Shown here piece after piece: positions 433-7,598 of a stretch of 64,000 nt of DNA. The DNA is from Thiomicrorhabdus chilensis DSM 12352 (GTDB taxonomy: Bacteria > Pseudomonadota > Gammaproteobacteria > Thiomicrospirales > Thiomicrospiraceae): positions 1,827,460 to 1,891,459 of the forward strand of contig NZ_KI519609.1 of the NCBI RefSeq assembly GCF_000483485.1, in the 5' to 3' direction. The first letter of the stretch is position 1, and each line of letters starts with the position of its first letter. The notes below the pieces were generated by a model. It was not told where the DNA came from and searched no databases. It saw nothing but the letters and a program-made list of their open reading frames with translations. Both the position numbers and the translations under genes were made by a program.

Positions 433-1080
433 ATGAATTTTGATCAAGCTCGATTTTTCATGGTAGAACAACAAATTCGTCCGTGGGATGTACTTGACCA
501 AAAGGTTCTAGACCCGTTTCTTAATATTCCAAGACACCAGTTTGTGGAAGAGTCCAAACAAAGCCTGGCCTACAGCGACGTCGAACTGCCGATCGGGCAC
601 GACGAATTCATGATGGCACCCAAAATTGAAGCCAGACTCCTACAAGCTTTGGACATCGACGAAACCGATACGGTTTTAGAAATCGGAACTGGCAGTGGAT
701 TCCTGACCGCCGTCATGGCCACACTGGGTAAATCGATCACCACAGTTGAAATCCATGCCGATCTGCAAGAAGTCGCCAAAAAACGTCTGGCTAGTTACAA
801 CAACATCGAATTCAAACTTGGGGATGCCAGCCACGGATGGGAAGACGGTAAACAGTACGATGTCATTATCCTAACCGGTTCAGTTCCTGAGATTCCGCAG
901 GCCTATAAAGAGCAATTAAACCTGGGTGGTCGCCTAGCAGTAATCGCTGGCCAGTCCCCGGCAATGACTGCGCAGATTTTAACCCGCATCAGTGAAGCCG
1001 AATGGGAAACAGAAACATTGTTTGAAACCGACCTCAAACCCCTGATGAATGCGCAATCATCTGAACCCTTTTCGCTATAA
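433..1080 (+). CDS. protein-L-isoaspartate O-methyltransferase-like SAM methyltransferase
   Basis: A 215-residue soluble protein of the PCMT family. These enzymes use S-adenosylmethionine; the classic members methylate isoaspartyl residues in damaged proteins. The N-terminal third carries the family's helical region (RFFMVEQQIRPWDV). The SAM-binding motif I is VLEIGTGSGFLTAVMA near residues 81-96, followed by the acidic end of strand 2 (TTVEIH). The ATG at 433 follows an AAAGGAA Shine-Dalgarno. The length is close to typical Pcm, but many gammaproteobacteria have a second Pcm-like paralogue near tolC, and this one looks more like that paralogue than like the surE-linked pcm, so repair activity is not certain. 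It is monocistronic, ending in a hairpin terminator. Confidence 0.85.
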   Translation: MNFDQARFFMVEQQIRPWDVLDQKVLDPFLNIPRHQFVEESKQSLAYSDVELPIGHDEFMMAPKIEARLLQALDIDETDTVLEIGTGSGFLTAVMATLGKSITTVEIHADLQEVAKKRLASYNNIEFKLGDASHGWEDGKQYDVIILTGSVPEIPQAYKEQLNLGGRLAVIAGQSPAMTAQILTRISEAEWETETLFETDLKPLMNAQSSEPFSL

Positions 1081-1104: not shown

Positions 1105-1130
1105 AAAGCCAGACTCACCTGGCTTTTTTT
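1105..1130 (+). terminator. Rho-independent terminator after the methyltransferase gene
   Basis: A 7-bp stem AAGCCAG / CTGGCTT with a 6-base loop is followed by a run of T. It lies 25 bases after the stop codon at 1080. The stem sequence recurs in other terminators of this window. Confidence 0.85.
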
Positions 1131-1409: not shown

Positions 1410-2867
1410 ATGGACTTGATTAGCCTTTATCCCACCTGGTACGAACCCGCTGTTGGTTCCGGCTGGGTCGTTGCGCTGATTGCAACCTTCCATGTGTTGG
1501 CCTCCCACACCTCTGTGGGGGCTGCACTCTTGTTTGCCTACCTCTCCCATAAAGCCTACCGTGAAGATCGTGATGACCTGCTGGATTTCGTTAAGAAATA
1601 CGGTCTGTTCCTACTTGTCTTCACTTATGTGGCCGGGTCAATCACCGGGCCGGGCATCTGGTATTCCACAACCGTGGCAAGTCCAAATGGAATCGGGGCG
1701 CTGATCCACTCGTTTGTGTGGAAGTGGGCGACCGAATGGGTTTTCTTTGTGATTGAAGTGGTCGGGGTATACATGATTGTTTACCTAGTCGGACGCGTGG
1801 ACAAGAAAACCCACATGAAAATCTCAGTGATTTTCGGTATAGCCTCTTTGGCAACCATGGTCATCATTGTGGGAATCTTGTCCTTCATGATGGTGCCAGG
1901 TAAAGAAATTTGGTTTGAAGAAGGGGGTTACCTAAATGGTTTCTACGGAACCAACACCTTTATCCAAACCGGTATGCGCATGGCCTTCATGTTTACCATG
2001 ACCGCCGTTGTGGGTGGCATTGTTGTCGCTGGTATCAAAGATGTAGCCTTTAAGAAAGAAATGGCGCGCAAACTGGGTTGGCTAGGGATCATCTCCACCT
2101 TGATCGGTGCCGCCATGTTGCAATGGTATCTGACATCGGTTCCAGATCAAGCTCTACTGGTAATGGAAAACCGTCTACCGGATTACTTTGTACCAAGTAT
2201 CGTTGCCGTATTAGCGGGTACCTTGGCTTACTTCATCATCACTATGCTGCAGCCTAAAACACTGGTTGCCGGTTTTGCAGGCTTTATGACCATCACCATT
2301 TTGGTTGCTGGCCTTTGGCCAGAAGAAACCGCTCGTGAATCGATGCGTAAACCTTGGGTAGCGGGACAATACGTCTACTCTAACCAGGTCATCGGTCGTG
2401 ACGTTCCGGGCATGGACATCAAGTCTCAACTTCCAACCATCGAAAAAGTCGGAATCCTGAAAGCTCACCCTTTCACTCCAGACGAATTGAAGGAAGTGAA
2501 TGACAGCAACTTGATTCAAACCGGTGAATATATCGCCATGGTGTACTGTTCAAACTGTCACTCACCAAGTGAGACCGGTATTCGACCATTGCACCGTTAC
2601 TTCCCGGATGGCGTCACTCAGGCGCGAATGGAGAAGTATGTAAAAGGCGCTTTGACAACCGGAAACATTGCTTATATGCCTAAAATGCCAATGCTTGATT
2701 CCGAAGTGAAAGCACTCTCTGCATTTTTGGTCATGAATAACGAAGGTGGACAACCTGCTGTGGTTGCTGCCATTAAACAAGAAGTGGATGCTCGTAACCG
2801 TGCTTTGGCTGAAAAACAAGCTCAAGACAAGGTTGCGTCTCTGACTCTTCCACAGGAGGTGAAATAA
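1410..2867 (+). CDS. cytochrome bd superfamily subunit I-like protein with a C-terminal heme c site
   Basis: 485 residues with the ATG at 1410 preceded by AAGGAA; a longer frame to 1332 exists but lacks a ribosome site and adds a non-membrane tail. About eight membrane segments fill the first 320 residues. FHVLASHTSVGAA (His28, His33) aligns by eye with the helix of CydA that carries the b595/d ligand His19. TGPGIWYS and WATEWVFFVIE (Glu109, Glu116) match the CydA TGITME and AIEGLMAFFLE regions. The helix expected to hold the b558 ligand His186 reads FIQTGMRMAF, without histidine, and the long quinol loop is absent. The C-terminus is soluble, with CSNCH at 380-384 for covalent heme c. This suggests an oxidase fed by cytochrome c rather than quinol. 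Family membership is well supported; the electron donor is inference. Confidence 0.75.
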   Translation: MDLISLYPTWYEPAVGSGWVVALIATFHVLASHTSVGAALLFAYLSHKAYREDRDDLLDFVKKYGLFLLVFTYVAGSITGPGIWYSTTVASPNGIGALIHSFVWKWATEWVFFVIEVVGVYMIVYLVGRVDKKTHMKISVIFGIASLATMVIIVGILSFMMVPGKEIWFEEGGYLNGFYGTNTFIQTGMRMAFMFTMTAVVGGIVVAGIKDVAFKKEMARKLGWLGIISTLIGAAMLQWYLTSVPDQALLVMENRLPDYFVPSIVAVLAGTLAYFIITMLQPKTLVAGFAGFMTITILVAGLWPEETARESMRKPWVAGQYVYSNQVIGRDVPGMDIKSQLPTIEKVGILKAHPFTPDELKEVNDSNLIQTGEYIAMVYCSNCHSPSETGIRPLHRYFPDGVTQARMEKYVKGALTTGNIAYMPKMPMLDSEVKALSAFLVMNNEGGQPAVVAAIKQEVDARNRALAEKQAQDKVASLTLPQEVK

Positions 2868-4114
2868 TGGACGCTTCTCAAGTCTCTCAAGTTACCGAGA
2901 TGATGTACGCCTTGCGCAACCCAGCAGGCGTACCCACCTACCCGATTATCTTCATCGGCCTAGGCGTACTGACCTTTGCCCTGCATATCCTGTTCGTACA
3001 GCTTATGCTGGGAACCTCGGCCATCACCCTTTACGGTGCGTTCAATAGCAACCCGTATTGGCGTCGTCTGGGTGCCGCCATGCTCGAAATTTCTAAGGTT
3101 TCGGTATCGGTCGCCATCGTAATCGGGGTAGCCCCGTTACTGTTTGTTCAGGTTATTTATGACCCACACTGGTACACCTCTAACGTGTTGTCGGCTAAAT
3201 GGGTTATCGCGTTTATCTTTATCCTGATCTTAGCCTACTGGGCCATGTACTTTTACTATTTCCAAAATGGTAAGAATGCTGACAAAACGGTAACGCCAAA
3301 ATCACGCTGGTCAATGATTGTGAGTCTGGCTTTAATGCTGGTTGTCGGTTTCATCATGCACAGCCTGACGACTCAGATCCTTCACCCTGAACTTTGGAAA
3401 GAGTGGTACATGCAAGATGGCGTTCTGGACTATTCCGGTTCTCAATTGCATGCCTATAATCCATGGAGATTTGCCTTCTTCATCAGCATGGCCATTCCCG
3501 TTGCTGGTGGGATGCTGGTCACCTACCGTCGCTTCAAGTCGGTGCGTGAAGATGCCGATCACGACTACCTGAACTGGGCCGCTGATTTAGGTAAAAAATG
3601 GATCAAAGTCGGTTCTGTTATCTCTGCAGCGCTTTATGTAGGTTGGATGATGAACCTTCCAGAAACGGCTGGTGATTTTGCAACCTCTTTCTGGGGGTAC
3701 GCCGGCGGTATCGCGGTTATCTTCTATGCTTTGTGGGCGATGATTCGCTTGAAAGGTGAAGCACGTTTTTGCAGCTACATGGCTTTACCAATGGCTTTGG
3801 TGATTGGATTGATTGTGGCGATCTCTCGTGAAATGCTTCGTTATGGGATTTTGAATGACTTCTTCCACTACGACTTCATGGACTACAAAGTGGTAATGGA
3901 CTGGTATTCAACCGGCCTGTTCTTCCTGACCTTTGCAATTGTGGGTGGATCGGTTCTGGCTTACTTCCTAACCATCGCATGGAAAACCGGACAAACCGTT
4001 GGCGTCTACACCCCTAGCGCGGCAGTCGATAAGATGGGAACCGTCGCTATCTGGATCATGGTACTTTGGATGATACAGTTCTTTGTCATCGGTTTCTGGA
4101 TCTGGGCAAAATAA
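2867..4114 (+). CDS. second cytochrome bd subunit I-like (CydA'-type) membrane subunit
   Basis: 415 residues, nearly all membrane: about nine hydrophobic segments. It overlaps the stop of the previous gene by one base (TAATG) and has a strong AGGAGG site, so the two are translationally coupled partners. The segment ALHILFVQLMLGTSAITL resembles the His19 helix of CydA (YHFLFVPLTLG) rather than anything in CydB. A following IGVAPLLFVQVIY then WVIAFIFILILAYWAMYF tracks the next two CydA helices. The pair therefore looks like two diverged copies of subunit I, comparable with the CydA-CydA' pairs described in the bd superfamily, not a standard CydAB. Whether this subunit binds heme is unclear; it has no CxxCH. 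Confidence 0.65.
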   Translation: MDASQVSQVTEMMYALRNPAGVPTYPIIFIGLGVLTFALHILFVQLMLGTSAITLYGAFNSNPYWRRLGAAMLEISKVSVSVAIVIGVAPLLFVQVIYDPHWYTSNVLSAKWVIAFIFILILAYWAMYFYYFQNGKNADKTVTPKSRWSMIVSLALMLVVGFIMHSLTTQILHPELWKEWYMQDGVLDYSGSQLHAYNPWRFAFFISMAIPVAGGMLVTYRRFKSVREDADHDYLNWAADLGKKWIKVGSVISAALYVGWMMNLPETAGDFATSFWGYAGGIAVIFYALWAMIRLKGEARFCSYMALPMALVIGLIVAISREMLRYGILNDFFHYDFMDYKVVMDWYSTGLFFLTFAIVGGSVLAYFLTIAWKTGQTVGVYTPSAAVDKMGTVAIWIMVLWMIQFFVIGFWIWAK

Positions 4115-4124
4115 GGAGTCAAAC

Positions 4125-4511
4125 ATGAAATTACAAACTATATTCGCATCCGCCTTAGCTTTTGCCTTCATTCAACCTGCTGCGGCCGAAGGTCAAAACC
4201 CAATTGCCAGTGGCTCAGCCATGGCTTGGCAATGCGCCCCCTGTCACGGCACTAACGGACAGGAATTTTTGGAAGCTATGCCGCCATTGGCTGGCATGCC
4301 CGCTAAACAGTTCACGGAGGCGATGATTGCCTACCGTGAAGGGACTCGTCCAGCCATCATCATGGATCGAGTCGCTCGCGGCTTTAACGATGCCGAGATT
4401 GAAGCCATGGCAGTCTGGTTTGAAAAGCAGCCGGTCAAACAATGGGAAAACACCAGCCTGACAGAATCACAGAACGCTCAAAAGGCTAACTCGACAGGAG
4501 GTCAGAAATGA
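4125..4511 (+). CDS. periplasmic monoheme cytochrome c
   Basis: 128 residues from the ATG at 4125, which follows AAGGAGT; an upstream in-frame ATG would start inside the preceding gene. Residues 1-21 form a signal peptide ending in QPAAA. CAPCH binds one heme c. ALAGMPAKQFTEAMIAYREG and the later IMDRVARGFNDAEIEAMAVWF follow the cytochrome c4/c553 plan, where a Met near MDR supplies the distal ligand. It sits between the oxidase subunits and the flavoprotein, and its stop overlaps the next start (ATGA), so it is probably the electron shuttle of this operon, or the cytochrome subunit of the flavocytochrome. Confidence 0.85.
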   Translation: MKLQTIFASALAFAFIQPAAAEGQNPIASGSAMAWQCAPCHGTNGQEFLEAMPPLAGMPAKQFTEAMIAYREGTRPAIIMDRVARGFNDAEIEAMAVWFEKQPVKQWENTSLTESQNAQKANSTGGQK

Positions 4512-5839
4512 GCCAACTAGAAAACAAGACATTTGATCAAAAAATCACACGTCGAGATCTCATCAAGGTATTTGGCGCGACTGCCGTGGCCGGAACGGGT
4601 ATTTTTGGCGCGAGCAGCAAAGCCTTCGCCAAAAACGCGCAACACGTTGTTGTGTTGGGTGGCGGTGTTGGGGGTTCCACTTTCGCAAAATACCTGCGTT
4701 TTGCCGACCCCGATGTCAAAATCACCATCATCGAGCAGTATCCGGAATACATCACCTGCTTGCGAAGCAACGATGTCATTGTGGGCATGCACACATTGGA
4801 TGAACTGACCTTCAACCTCGACACCATCAAATCGAAATACAATGTTAATGTTGTGATCGACAAAGTGATTGGTGCTGATTATGACAAGAAAACCGTACGT
4901 ACCGAAAAAGGTGAAACCTTCTCTTACGACAAACTGGTGGTCTCTCCGGGTATTGACTTCAAGTTTGAAGATTACGAAGGCTATGATGCGGAAATGGCCG
5001 AAGGCAAATTTCCACATGCCTACAAAGCCGGACCTCAGACGCTAGAATTGAGAAGACAGCTGTTGGCGGTACCGAAAGGCGGTACAGCGATTATCGCTCC
5101 GCCACAAAACCCGTTCCGTTGCCCTCCTGGGCCTTATGAACGTGCTTCATTCTTTGCTGAGCACTTCAAAAAGCATAATCCAACCGCTAAATTGATTGTG
5201 TTGGATCCGAAAGACCGCTTCACCAAAGACGGCCCTTTCAAAAAAGCTTGGGAACGTCTCTACGGTTATAAAACGGATAACGCCTTGATTGAATGGGTTT
5301 CCGGTTCGGATGGTGGACGTGTTGTTCGTCTGGATGCCGAAAACATGATGGTTGAAACCGATGGTGGAGACTACAAGGCTGACTTGATCAACATCATACC
5401 TAATCAGCGTGCCGGCGTTTTGGCACAAAAAATTGGGCTGACCAATGATTCTGGTTGGTGTCCGATTGAGCGCAACACCATGGAATCCTCTCTGCACAAA
5501 GACGTGTACGTTCTGGGTGACAGCAGCATTGCCGACGCTATGCCAAAATCAGGTTACTCTGCCAATTCCCAGGCCAAAGTTTGCGCCCGAGCGGTGGCGG
5601 ACACCCTAAAAGGTGAGCAACCTGGTACGGCGATCTACTCTAACGTCTGCTACAGCCTGGCTGGAGAGAACTACGGAGTGTCGATTGCGGCTATCTATGA
5701 AGTACGCGACGGACTGATTCAGCCTAAAGGTGAATCCGCTGGAGTGTCGCCGATTACCGATAAAGTTACGCAACCCATTCTTGAAGCCGTTTATCAGAAA
5801 AACTGGCAAAGAGAATTTGTTAAAGACGTATTCTCTTAA
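4508..5839 (+). CDS. fccB: flavocytochrome c sulfide dehydrogenase, FAD subunit
   Basis: 443 residues. It oxidises sulfide in the periplasm and passes electrons to a cytochrome c partner. A twin-arginine signal (TRRDLIKVFG, Arg15-Arg16) ends at SSKAFA. The FAD-binding VVVLGGGVGGSTFAKYLR follows directly. The two cysteines that form the redox disulfide next to the flavin in this family are present in their usual settings, NPFRCPPGPYERASFF and SGWCPIE, and the FAD-closing VYVLGDSSIADAMPKSGYSANSQ is intact. This pattern separates it from sulfide:quinone reductases, which lack the RCPPGPYERA block. The ATG overlaps the preceding stop by four bases. Both the neighbouring cytochromes could be its heme subunit. 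The call is strong from motifs alone. Confidence 0.92.
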   Translation: MSQLENKTFDQKITRRDLIKVFGATAVAGTGIFGASSKAFAKNAQHVVVLGGGVGGSTFAKYLRFADPDVKITIIEQYPEYITCLRSNDVIVGMHTLDELTFNLDTIKSKYNVNVVIDKVIGADYDKKTVRTEKGETFSYDKLVVSPGIDFKFEDYEGYDAEMAEGKFPHAYKAGPQTLELRRQLLAVPKGGTAIIAPPQNPFRCPPGPYERASFFAEHFKKHNPTAKLIVLDPKDRFTKDGPFKKAWERLYGYKTDNALIEWVSGSDGGRVVRLDAENMMVETDGGDYKADLINIIPNQRAGVLAQKIGLTNDSGWCPIERNTMESSLHKDVYVLGDSSIADAMPKSGYSANSQAKVCARAVADTLKGEQPGTAIYSNVCYSLAGENYGVSIAAIYEVRDGLIQPKGESAGVSPITDKVTQPILEAVYQKNWQREFVKDVFS

Positions 5840-5862
5840 TGGCTAATGGTGAGGAAAACAAA

Positions 5863-6573
5863 ATGCTTAGAAAAACAATATTAACCATCGCCATGGCAAG
5901 CGTTTCGACACTTGCGCTTGCCGGTCACGATAGCAAACCAACGGCGAACCCTTGGACAAATTTTGGACTTGAAAACAAGATTCAAAGCATGCCCAAAGGG
6001 GACCCGATCCGTGGAGAAGAAGTGCACACTCAAATGATGTGTAACGCTTGTCACGGTGAAAAAGGGGAATCTCCTTCCCGCAATTATGCTTCTTTGAACG
6101 GTCAACCTTCAGAATACACCATCAAAATGATGCTGGATTACCAGGATGGTCGCCGCTGGGAAGATTACAAGCAAGCCAATGTCATGGTTAAAATTTCGCG
6201 TGCTTTGGACGAACAGCAAATCGCCGATGTTGCCGCATTCTATGCACAACAACCGCTGAACAGCTGGAGTTACGCTAAAGAAGTCGATCAAGAGATGTTT
6301 GCAAAAATGGATCGCGTCGTTCGCAAAGGTGACGTCTCACGCATGATTGTTCCCTGCGCTTCCTGTCATGGAGCCAAAGGTGAAGGTAATGGCATTGTTC
6401 CGGCTTTAGCCGGTCAAGTACCTGAATACTTTATTCGTACCATGAAAGCTTACCAAGGGAAACACCGTAATAACGATGTCAACGAAGGTATGTCGCAATT
6501 CACCCACAAGCTGACCGATGCGGAAATTGAAGCCCTGGCCGAATATTATGCCGCGCTGGGTCAAGCACAATAA
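5863..6573 (+). CDS. diheme cytochrome c, candidate heme subunit for sulfide dehydrogenase
   Basis: 236 residues from the ATG at 5863, which is preceded by GTGAGGA; the earlier frame start at 5839 overlaps the fccB stop and would place eight polar residues before the signal peptide. The signal peptide (MLRKTILTIAMASVSTLALA) is followed by two cytochrome c4-type domains, with CNACH in the first and CASCH in the second. Tandem class I hemes of this size are what the cytochrome subunit FccA of flavocytochrome c or cytochrome c4 looks like. Its place directly after fccB supports the former, but cytochrome c4-type carriers are also the donors of terminal oxidases, so it could bridge FccB and the bd-like oxidase of the same operon. 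Confidence 0.82.
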   Translation: MLRKTILTIAMASVSTLALAGHDSKPTANPWTNFGLENKIQSMPKGDPIRGEEVHTQMMCNACHGEKGESPSRNYASLNGQPSEYTIKMMLDYQDGRRWEDYKQANVMVKISRALDEQQIADVAAFYAQQPLNSWSYAKEVDQEMFAKMDRVVRKGDVSRMIVPCASCHGAKGEGNGIVPALAGQVPEYFIRTMKAYQGKHRNNDVNEGMSQFTHKLTDAEIEALAEYYAALGQAQ

Positions 6574-6583
6574 GGAGCTAAAC

Positions 6584-6682
6584 ATGAATGGAATCAAAGC
6601 AATCTTATGGGGTCTTGTTCTGACATTTGGCTCAATCGCACTGATGTGGTGGCTTAGCACCTTGACAGTGGTCTCATTGTAA
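6584..6682 (+). CDS. 32-residue single-pass membrane peptide at the end of the sulfide/oxidase operon
   Basis: A short frame beginning at an ATG preceded by AAGGAGC, ten bases after the diheme cytochrome stop, and ending at TAA. The product starts MNGIKAILWGLVLTFGS and continues with IALMWWLSTLTVVSL: one hydrophobic helix with a short polar start. Ribosome site, spacing and composition all look real. Cytochrome bd oxidases usually carry a CydX-type single-helix subunit of 30-40 residues, so a small subunit of the bd-like oxidase is an attractive reading, but there is no sequence match I can claim. It is followed by a hairpin terminator, so it closes the operon. Confidence 0.7.
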   Translation: MNGIKAILWGLVLTFGSIALMWWLSTLTVVSL

Positions 6683-6843: not shown

Positions 6844-7248
6844 ATGACCTTTAAATACAAAATGGAAGCGCGCGACCACGAATGCGATGTTCAGGGTGTG
6901 GTCAACAATGCCCATTATCAGCACTACTTCGAACATGCTCGCCACGTATTTCTCAAACAGAACGAACTCGACTTTGCCGCCCTTGCGCGCCAACACATCA
7001 ATCTGATGGTCAAAAAAATAGAAATTGAATATCTACACTCGCTGTCAGCCCACGATCAGTTTTACATTACGGTCCACGTAAACAAACTGTCGAAAATTCA
7101 ATATCGCTTTAGTCAGTCACTCCATCTGCAGAACAACCATACACTGATGGCACGCGCCAATACCGATGTGGTGACGGTAGGAGAAAGACATAAACTTCTT
7201 AGGCACTCGCCGCTGGAATCGCTAATTCATGCAACCCAGACGCCCTAG
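6844..7248 (+). CDS. acyl-CoA thioesterase, hot-dog fold (YbgC/FadM-like)
   Basis: 134 residues. The start MTFKYKMEARDHECDVQGVVNNAHYQHYFEHAR is the 4-hydroxybenzoyl-CoA thioesterase signature: the Asp in the DVQGVVNN turn is the catalytic acid and the following Y-x-x-Y-F-E-x-A-R helix is the hot-dog helix. Members hydrolyse short or medium acyl-CoA thioesters in the cytoplasm; YbgC works with the Tol-Pal system and FadM with beta-oxidation, but neither context is present here. The length is normal for the family. It is followed 26 bases later by the NifX-like gene on the same strand, so the two may be co-transcribed. The specific substrate cannot be told from sequence. Confidence 0.8.
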   Translation: MTFKYKMEARDHECDVQGVVNNAHYQHYFEHARHVFLKQNELDFAALARQHINLMVKKIEIEYLHSLSAHDQFYITVHVNKLSKIQYRFSQSLHLQNNHTLMARANTDVVTVGERHKLLRHSPLESLIHATQTP

Positions 7249-7274: not shown

Positions 7275-7598
7275 ATGAAAATTGCACTCACCAGCCCAAA
7301 CGCTCGCACCCTGTCCGGACATGCCGGAAAATGCCCAGGATTTTTAGTATTTGAAATCACAGATCGCCAAATCATCCAGCAGAGCCATATCAAACTAAAC
7401 AAGGAACAGGTGCTTCGCAACCTGAAAGGGGCTTTATCCAACCAGGCCGACCACCCCTTATCTGACATCAACGTTTTTGTGACCCAAAGCCTAGGAGAGG
7501 GCTTGCAAAGACGCCTGACCGAGCAAAACATTGAAGTATTCCAGACCCAGGAAAACGACCCGATCAACGCACTTAAGACACTCAATCTGGTCGACTGA
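7275..7598 (+). CDS. NifX/NifB-C-terminal-like domain protein
   Basis: 107 residues matching the dinitrogenase iron-molybdenum cofactor domain: MKIALTSPN at the first strand, then a SGHAGKCPGFLVFEI turn with the Gly-His-x-Gly-x-Cys ligand region, and a late FVTQSLGEGLQRRLTEQNIEVF segment corresponding to the family's G-x-G-x-x-x-x-L motif. In nitrogen fixers such proteins carry cofactor precursors. No nif gene is in this window, and stand-alone copies occur in many organisms with unknown roles, probably metal-cluster handling. RBS is weak (GGAATTATT). One CAGGCCTG repeat lies just after the stop. Confidence 0.75.
   Translation: MKIALTSPNARTLSGHAGKCPGFLVFEITDRQIIQQSHIKLNKEQVLRNLKGALSNQADHPLSDINVFVTQSLGEGLQRRLTEQNIEVFQTQENDPINALKTLNLVD

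Follow-up and report, generated by a model that had tools for sequence, protein, structure and literature searches.

Thiomicrorhabdus chilensis DSM 12352 carries six closely packed genes that place a sulfide dehydrogenase beside a putative oxidase of the cytochrome bd superfamily (Table 1). The window, meaning the whole 64,000-nucleotide stretch analysed here, is G000:C1:1827460-1891459 (contig NZ_KI519609.1) of a 2.44 Mb genome, and the operon fills its positions 1410-6682, all six genes lying on the forward strand. An original prediction made from the letters of this DNA had named two CydA-like membrane subunits, a monoheme cytochrome c, FccB, a diheme cytochrome c and a 32-residue peptide in tight succession, and each of them is present at its place. 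The start of the CydA' gene has one base in common with the stop of the CydA-like gene, 10 bases separate CydA' from the cytochrome c gene, the latter overlaps fccB by 4 bases, and gaps of 23 and 10 bases precede the diheme cytochrome c and the peptide. Chance neighbourhood was rejected as an explanation of the gene order because the same order recurs in other species.

Table 1. Operon genes and adjoining features, in window coordinates.
Feature	Protein	Length (amino acids)	Position	Strand	Remarks
CydA-like subunit I	P0001	485	1410..2867	+	CydA-fold membrane part at about residues 11-325, plus C-terminal heme c domain
CydA-like subunit II (CydA')	P0002	415	2867..4114	+	CydA fold
Monoheme cytochrome c, FccA-type partner of FccB	P0003	128	4125..4511	+	One CXXCH
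FccB, flavoprotein of flavocytochrome c sulfide dehydrogenase	P0004	443	4508..5839	+	
Diheme cytochrome c, c4-like	P0005	236	5863..6573	+	
Single-helix membrane peptide	P0006	32	6584..6682	+	
Protein-L-isoaspartate methyltransferase-like gene			433..1080		Flanks the operon
Terminator-like hairpin and T run			1105..1126	+	Between methyltransferase gene and operon
Thioesterase-like gene			6844..7248		Flanks the operon
Small dinitrogenase iron-molybdenum cofactor-like protein (PF02579)			7275..7598		3' of the operon and of the thioesterase-like gene

Oxidase subunits

P0001 has the CydA fold of the superfamily core, and the fold match of P0002 is clear (VIA-align), this subunit matching CydA better than other chains. 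With PF01654, a detection model and not a defining feature of the bd superfamily, P0001 scores 18.9 bits (E 0.0006) against a cut-off of 26.2, and P0002 gives no match. Profile A3 finds no match among PDB sequences up to an E value of 10.

Residues were compared in an alignment of 46 CydA-like, 52 CydA', 29 canonical CydA and 4 other divergent CydA rows; sequences under 400-420 amino acids were excluded from alignments and trees, the C-terminal part cannot be matched reliably to canonical CydA, and there are gaps in the Q-loop region. The oxygen site is conserved. H28, E109 and E116 of P0001 occupy the columns of the canonical His in transmembrane helix 1 (TM1) and Glu pair in TM3, and all three are invariant in 46/46 CydA-like rows. 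We take this active-site set to be residues 19, 99 and 107 of the E. coli protein, which are also its numbers in row L208.

The b558 His is missing. Its column, filled by His in 29/29 canonical CydAs, reads F193 in P0001 and Phe in 45 of the 46 CydA-like rows; this is the last residue of FIQTGMRMAF (residues 184-193), the helix that had been predicted to lack the ligand. At the column of the invariant canonical Met, all 46 have a gap. Presumably these two ligands are residues 186 and 393 in E. coli. Quinol-site features are missing as well, in agreement with the prediction: the Q-loop Lys and Glu columns, invariant in 29/29 canonical rows, hold I264 and A269 in P0001, within the gappy loop alignment. 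The available part of one source names Lys252 and Glu257 as previously indicated quinol-site residues (PMC13189123).

In place of these features, P0001 ends in a heme c domain. The CSNCH motif first noticed at residues 380-384 is confirmed, and its ligands C380, C383 and H384, together with M423, the candidate sixth ligand, are invariant in 46/46 rows; the domain matches Cytochrome_CBB3 with an E value of 0.003, under that model's cut-off. Loss of b558 and quinol features alongside gain of heme c is the pattern that a change of electron entry point, from quinol to cytochrome c, would leave. The membrane pair could also be imagined in reverse, as a cytochrome c:quinone oxidoreductase built on a CydA/NrfD-like scaffold that uses electrons from sulfide to reduce the quinone pool, in support of reverse electron flow; we consider this very improbable.

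CydA' retains the TM1 His (H40 in P0002) in 52/52 rows. P0002 has Ala and Leu at the TM3 Glu columns, the first of which lacks Glu in 52/52 CydA' rows, and the b558 His column is Phe in 51/52 and His in one. H165 and H195 are near-invariant (51/52) and specific to CydA'.

A tree of 131 rows separates the CydA-like, the CydA' and the canonical proteins, each by a branch of its own with support of 100/98 to 100/99; its bootstrap is unsettled, and long branches make the deeper order unsafe. The placement suggested as a check on the original prediction thus puts the CydA-like subunit outside the canonical clade of 29 rows, with 100/99 for its own group, and a canonical CydAB was rejected on both residues and tree placement. 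Like E. coli bd-I and Geobacillus bd, the operon oxidase has the CydA fold, the TM1 His and the TM3 Glu pair; unlike them, it lacks the b558 His, the Q-loop Lys and Glu and the GRQPW end, and it has a CydA-like second subunit and an added heme c domain. Three divergent CydA-like proteins of 589-624 amino acids (L225, L226, L227) retain the b558 His, but Tyr fills their first TM3 Glu column; next to them lie genes whose products carry two CXXCH motifs.

Conservation of E116 also bears on whether the enzyme conserves energy. The available text of one review links bd oxidases with resistance to NO and peroxide (PMC8657789), and the operon enzyme could likewise be a detoxifying one that removes O2, NO or peroxide at high sulfide, not an energy-conserving terminal oxidase. 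E116, kept in 46/46, nevertheless aligns with Glu107 of the canonical proton path, a role named in a reference title, and its partner enzyme is one of sulfide catabolism; detoxification is the least credible of the alternatives weighed here.

Sulfide dehydrogenase and cytochromes c

FccB matches FCSD_central (5.5e-41) and FCSD-flav_bind (1.1e-14), and its redox pair C205/C381 aligns with Cys161/337 of 1fcd. C84 corresponds to Cys42 of 1fcd, the cysteine that binds flavin adenine dinucleotide (FAD) covalently, and is kept in the window protein and its near relatives. An RRDL motif resembles a twin-arginine translocation signal by eye, with an E value of only 0.17 for Pfam TAT_signal; an RR motif near the N-terminus occurs in 52/74 oxidase-linked FccB rows.

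Two cytochromes c accompany FccB. The best PDB matches of P0003 are the heme subunits 1fcd_C and 5n1t_B of flavocytochrome c (FCC), and that of P0005 is cytochrome c4 (6q2u), so the diheme protein was rejected as FccA. The set shares the FccB family, the redox Cys pair and a monoheme FccA with known FccAB (1fcd, 3vrd, 5n1t), and monoheme FccA also with the membrane-bound FCC that the accessible text describes from Thiobacillus sp. W5 (PMC5744179).

P0006 is found by tblastn in 15/79 named loci, all within the nearest ones (L084-L100), two of which (L092 and L094) end too early for it to be detected. A scan for any small helix 3' of c4 gives 18/45, several of them plainly unrelated open reading frames (ORFs). 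A role for the peptide as a general subunit is thus unsupported.

Distribution and linkage

A scan of a species-genome collection gave 471 tblastn-confirmed stretches; the 79 loci analysed here come from the 80 best-scoring of these and are not a random sample. ORFs were scripted from the first ATG, GTG or TTG, making some starts possibly too long, and greedy picking lists spurious frames in the GC-rich loci L058, L060, L159 and L161. Among named matches to the first gene, those in Thiomicrorhabdus are the closest (90-92%). The 79 loci span Thiomicrorhabdus, Hydrogenovibrio, Thiomicrospira, Halothiobacillus, Guyparkeria, Thioalkalivibrio and Thiothrix, and further Thiomonas, Hydrogenophaga, Rhodoferax, Tepidimonas, Thiobacillus, Chromatiaceae and others. 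Relatives of P0001 occur in 25/58 near genomes, 9/369 class genomes and, with profile A1, 2/397 phylum genomes, the own genome being counted in each; P0001 has no match in the viral contigs searched.

CydA' adjoins the CydA-like gene in 76/79 loci, and the remaining 3 stop at a contig edge. A same-strand FccB lies within 4 kb in 69/79 loci, and among loci with at least 4.5 kb downstream it is present in 57/59, L159 and L161 being the two that lack it. The adjacency survey proposed with the original prediction therefore finds fccB placed other than at random relative to the oxidase in these evaluable near relatives. FccA and FccB precede the oxidase in seven loci (L121, L122, L137, L138, L145, L148, L151), six with Halothiobacillus or Halothiobacillaceae names and one Guyparkeria, and follow it in the other linked loci; the two gene orders are a rearrangement that kept the link. 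In an even draw of the class, fccB stands in the operon in six of the nine oxidase-bearing genomes (the own genome, G026, G093, G177, G295 and G321). FccB is far commoner than the oxidase, with an FCSD match in 132/369 class genomes.

Several loci depart from this arrangement. In four genomes of one genus (L051, L052, L053, L054) there is a second copy of the cydA-cydA' pair, at about 50% identity, in a locus where no fccB was seen. In L052 and L053 this copy is followed by a protein with one CXXCH, and L052 and L054 have nearby a gene identified by eye as one for a CobW-like GTPase. A distant pair at L061:6258-9031 has a CXXCH motif in both CydA-like subunits, again with no fccB in the locus.

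Phylogeny of the partnership

In the FccB tree, the 74 FccBs of oxidase operons form one side of a branch against 51 other FccB or FccB-like rows, with a Shimodaira-Hasegawa-like approximate likelihood ratio (SH-aLRT) support of 100. The tree was made by a quick method and has several long branches; lower-scoring rows were added against sampling bias. The tree leaves out L033 (a duplicate of L062), L189 (no row obtained) and one of 20 later loci, whose sequence was too short. Two genomes are represented twice among the linked rows (L055/L101, L057/L156), which also contain two Marinobacterium rows (L126, L130), and the other rows were classed as unlinked by genome, having either no P0001 match or a match elsewhere, and not by their neighbour genes. 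L134 holds a second set of cytochrome c, FccB and diheme cytochrome c (L134:4208-6507) on the same contig as the oxidase gene; its FccB (L134:4513-5793), about 4 kb upstream of that gene, labelled as linked at first and unlabelled in the final tree, falls inside the oxidase-linked clade.

Many members of the linked clade differ from known FccAB in one residue of the flavin site. The covalent-FAD Cys is present in 25/74 oxidase-linked rows vs 42/51 other rows, and the 49 linked rows without it have Pro (45), Gly (3) or Ala (1), with the redox pair kept in 74/74. FccBs of L103, L106, L114, L123, L137 and L151 are among those without the Cys, mostly with Pro in a motif like RPYGSSEV.

The oxidase tells the same story. 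All 70 linked rows and 6/7 rows cut by a contig end form one clade (97) of a midpoint-rooted tree of CydA-like proteins, outside which fall the rows without fccB (L058, L159, L161, the second copies L052-L054, L060 and L061). One origin with long retention is the simplest reading of the apparent history of the oxidase-FccB partnership. CydA-like and FccB distances correlate at r = 0.73 over 66 loci, a value that 0/500 permutations reach and that could come from shared ancestry alone, and at r = 0.81 in the 51 loci outside the nearest group; L091 was excluded from this comparison.

Proposed electron route from sulfide to oxygen

Given the gene order, families and folds, the missing quinol and b558 residues, the conserved O2-site residues and the apparent single origin, the operon probably encodes a cytochrome-c-fed bd-superfamily terminal oxidase dedicated to sulfide, to which we assign a probability of about 0.7. 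The original prediction of an oxidase fed by cytochrome c from sulfide finds support at this level: the analysis returned neither placement in the canonical clade nor a random distribution of fccB.

In such a route, FccB would oxidise HS- in the periplasm at its Cys205/Cys381 disulfide and FAD. Electrons would pass from the FccB flavin to the monoheme FccA, on to the c4-like diheme protein and the heme c domain of CydA, and then through two predicted active-site hemes of CydA to O2. Protons for O2 reduction would come from the cytoplasm by a path using the Glu116 equivalent, so charge separation would still draw on cytoplasmic protons. The quinone pool, complex III and the heme-copper oxidase of the genome would all be skipped. 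The proteins may assemble into one complex, perhaps a supercomplex with a role at low oxygen or high sulfide. With odds slightly below even, the operon would be a dedicated sulfide:oxygen chain: a once-evolved FccAB isoform, its covalent flavin link lost in many members, would serve a c-type bd-superfamily oxidase, and HS- would be oxidised with O2 in a single periplasmic-membrane assembly that needs neither quinone nor a heme-copper enzyme.

The expected benefit would be sulfide-tolerant respiration. According to the accessible text of one review, H2S does not inhibit the bd oxidases of E. coli and does inhibit bo3 (PMC8657789), so such a route would have a purpose at high sulfide. In the metatranscriptome of a nearly anoxic sulfidic spring, as reported in the available portion of the source, fccAB, whether of the oxidase-linked or of another copy, were the top-transcribed sulfur-oxidising genes of a Thiomicrorhabdus (PMC10494364). 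Hydrogenovibrio S5 is reported to have both FCC and bd oxidase and XCL-2 neither, again in the part of the source available (PMC5733100).

The main competitor would leave the oxidase out of the sulfide route. Electrons from FccAB and c4 would go to a heme-copper oxidase or to different acceptors; the bd-like pair would be a separate cytochrome c oxidase sharing only transcription or regulation, induced for example by sulfide or low oxygen. The genome does encode one heme-copper oxidase subunit I (L228), cbb3-like by eye from the CXXCH ORFs beside it; the c4 match 6q2u is identical in sequence to chains of 8smr and 8snh, both cbb3 oxidase entries; and some cydA-cydA' pairs are unlinked and accompanied only by a monoheme c. 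Co-regulation, however, needs neither a link kept in two gene orders (57/59 loci) nor an FccB clade of its own, and the oxidase has its own heme c entry domain. We judge this explanation unlikely.

Several observations weigh against a cytochrome-c-fed oxidase dedicated to sulfide. Besides the heme-copper oxidase, the genome encodes two FCSD-like proteins and a further FccAB pair, so c4 could feed that oxidase instead. For the P0001 model, the mean predicted local distance difference test (pLDDT) score is only 80.9, with low stretches at residues 1-20, 81-100, 161-180 and 311-330. Three of the nine oxidase genomes in the even class draw (G165, G167, G275; loci L058, L060, L061) have no fccB nearby, and the second oxidase copies (L051-L054) occur without it; sulfide is therefore not the only donor, nor probably the ancestral one. 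Among the 15 nearest loci (L084-L100 less two), moreover, CydA-like and FccB distances correlate at r = 0.15, while CydA-like and CydA' distances correlate at r = 0.88. Because FccB distances fail to track those of the oxidase there, the FccAB part has been swapped, which makes tight residue-level co-adaptation unlikely.

Two linked FccB types, as their distances indicate, are exchanged among these 15 loci. Thiomicrorhabdus heinhorstiae HH1 has two tandem operons (L080:4592-14781, on a contig common with L091) whose cydA-cydA' DNA is the same over 2705/2705 bases, with identity ending 14 bases upstream and 3 downstream, and whose FccBs are 46% identical. This pattern is either a true partner swap or a repeat collapsed in assembly.

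Surroundings of the operon

The window holds nine terminator-like sites in this region against a shuffle mean of 6.9 (sd 2.5), and neither promoter nor terminator scans give counts clearly above shuffles. Scans of the window for tRNAs, Rfam families (at the gathering threshold) and tandem repeats find no matches. Elsewhere in the genome, PF01654 has no match besides P0001, and the two FCSD-like flavoproteins (L063:5876-10276) are each preceded by a protein with one CXXCH.

Relation to known systems and significance

By its tested features, together with the heme c motif in the C-terminus of CydA, which we take to be a mark of the OR-C family, the oxidase probably belongs to OR-C, and its type is for that reason already known at the level of sequence. 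This classification reportedly stems from the 2021 ISME J paper of Murali, Gennis and Hemp. Two CydA-type subunits also make up the archaeal CydAA' of Caldivirga, which is reported to use quinol.

As summarised in the available parts of later papers, three families (qOR, OR-C and OR-N) were distinguished in the bd superfamily in 2021, and only one has a conserved quinol site (PMC10839748, PMC8509429, PMC13189123). Like OR-C in these accounts, the operon oxidase has a bd-superfamily core without that site and would be expected to use a donor other than quinol (PMC10839748, PMC13189123, PMC11707229, PMC8509429). Unlike OR-C as portrayed in the accessible text of such citing papers, it is partnered with FccAB and c4, apparently from a single origin and across many genera. 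It resembles the OR-N CydAA' of Nitrospirales and Nitrospinota in its two CydA-like subunits and in cytochrome c as the donor that is thought to act there (PMC10839748, PMC12342949). OR-N enzymes are set apart by description, since the same partial accounts place them in nitrite oxidisers, some beside alternative complex III.

A literature search found no description of the operon, which is weak evidence of absence, as most subscription journals and the 2021 classification paper lay outside the search; two papers mention FCC and a bd oxidase of one genome, each time as separate items (PMC5733100, PMC11596669). What appears new is a dedicated partnership that seems to have arisen once, together with the partner swap and an FccB clade in which the flavin Cys is often lost, although operons of this kind may already figure in the 2021 paper or its supplement.

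A 2021 review states, in its accessible part, that all characterised bd-type cytochromes are quinol oxidases and that one with another donor has still to be obtained and characterised (PMC8509429). The operon names a likely donor for a non-quinol bd oxidase, in a compact gene set that is present in named isolates of sulfur bacteria. If the proposed route is true, annotation as an ordinary bd quinol oxidase and an unconnected sulfide dehydrogenase misses a direct, perhaps sulfide-tolerant path from sulfide to oxygen, and the bd superfamily would gain a member that draws on cytochrome c and is linked to a named substrate.

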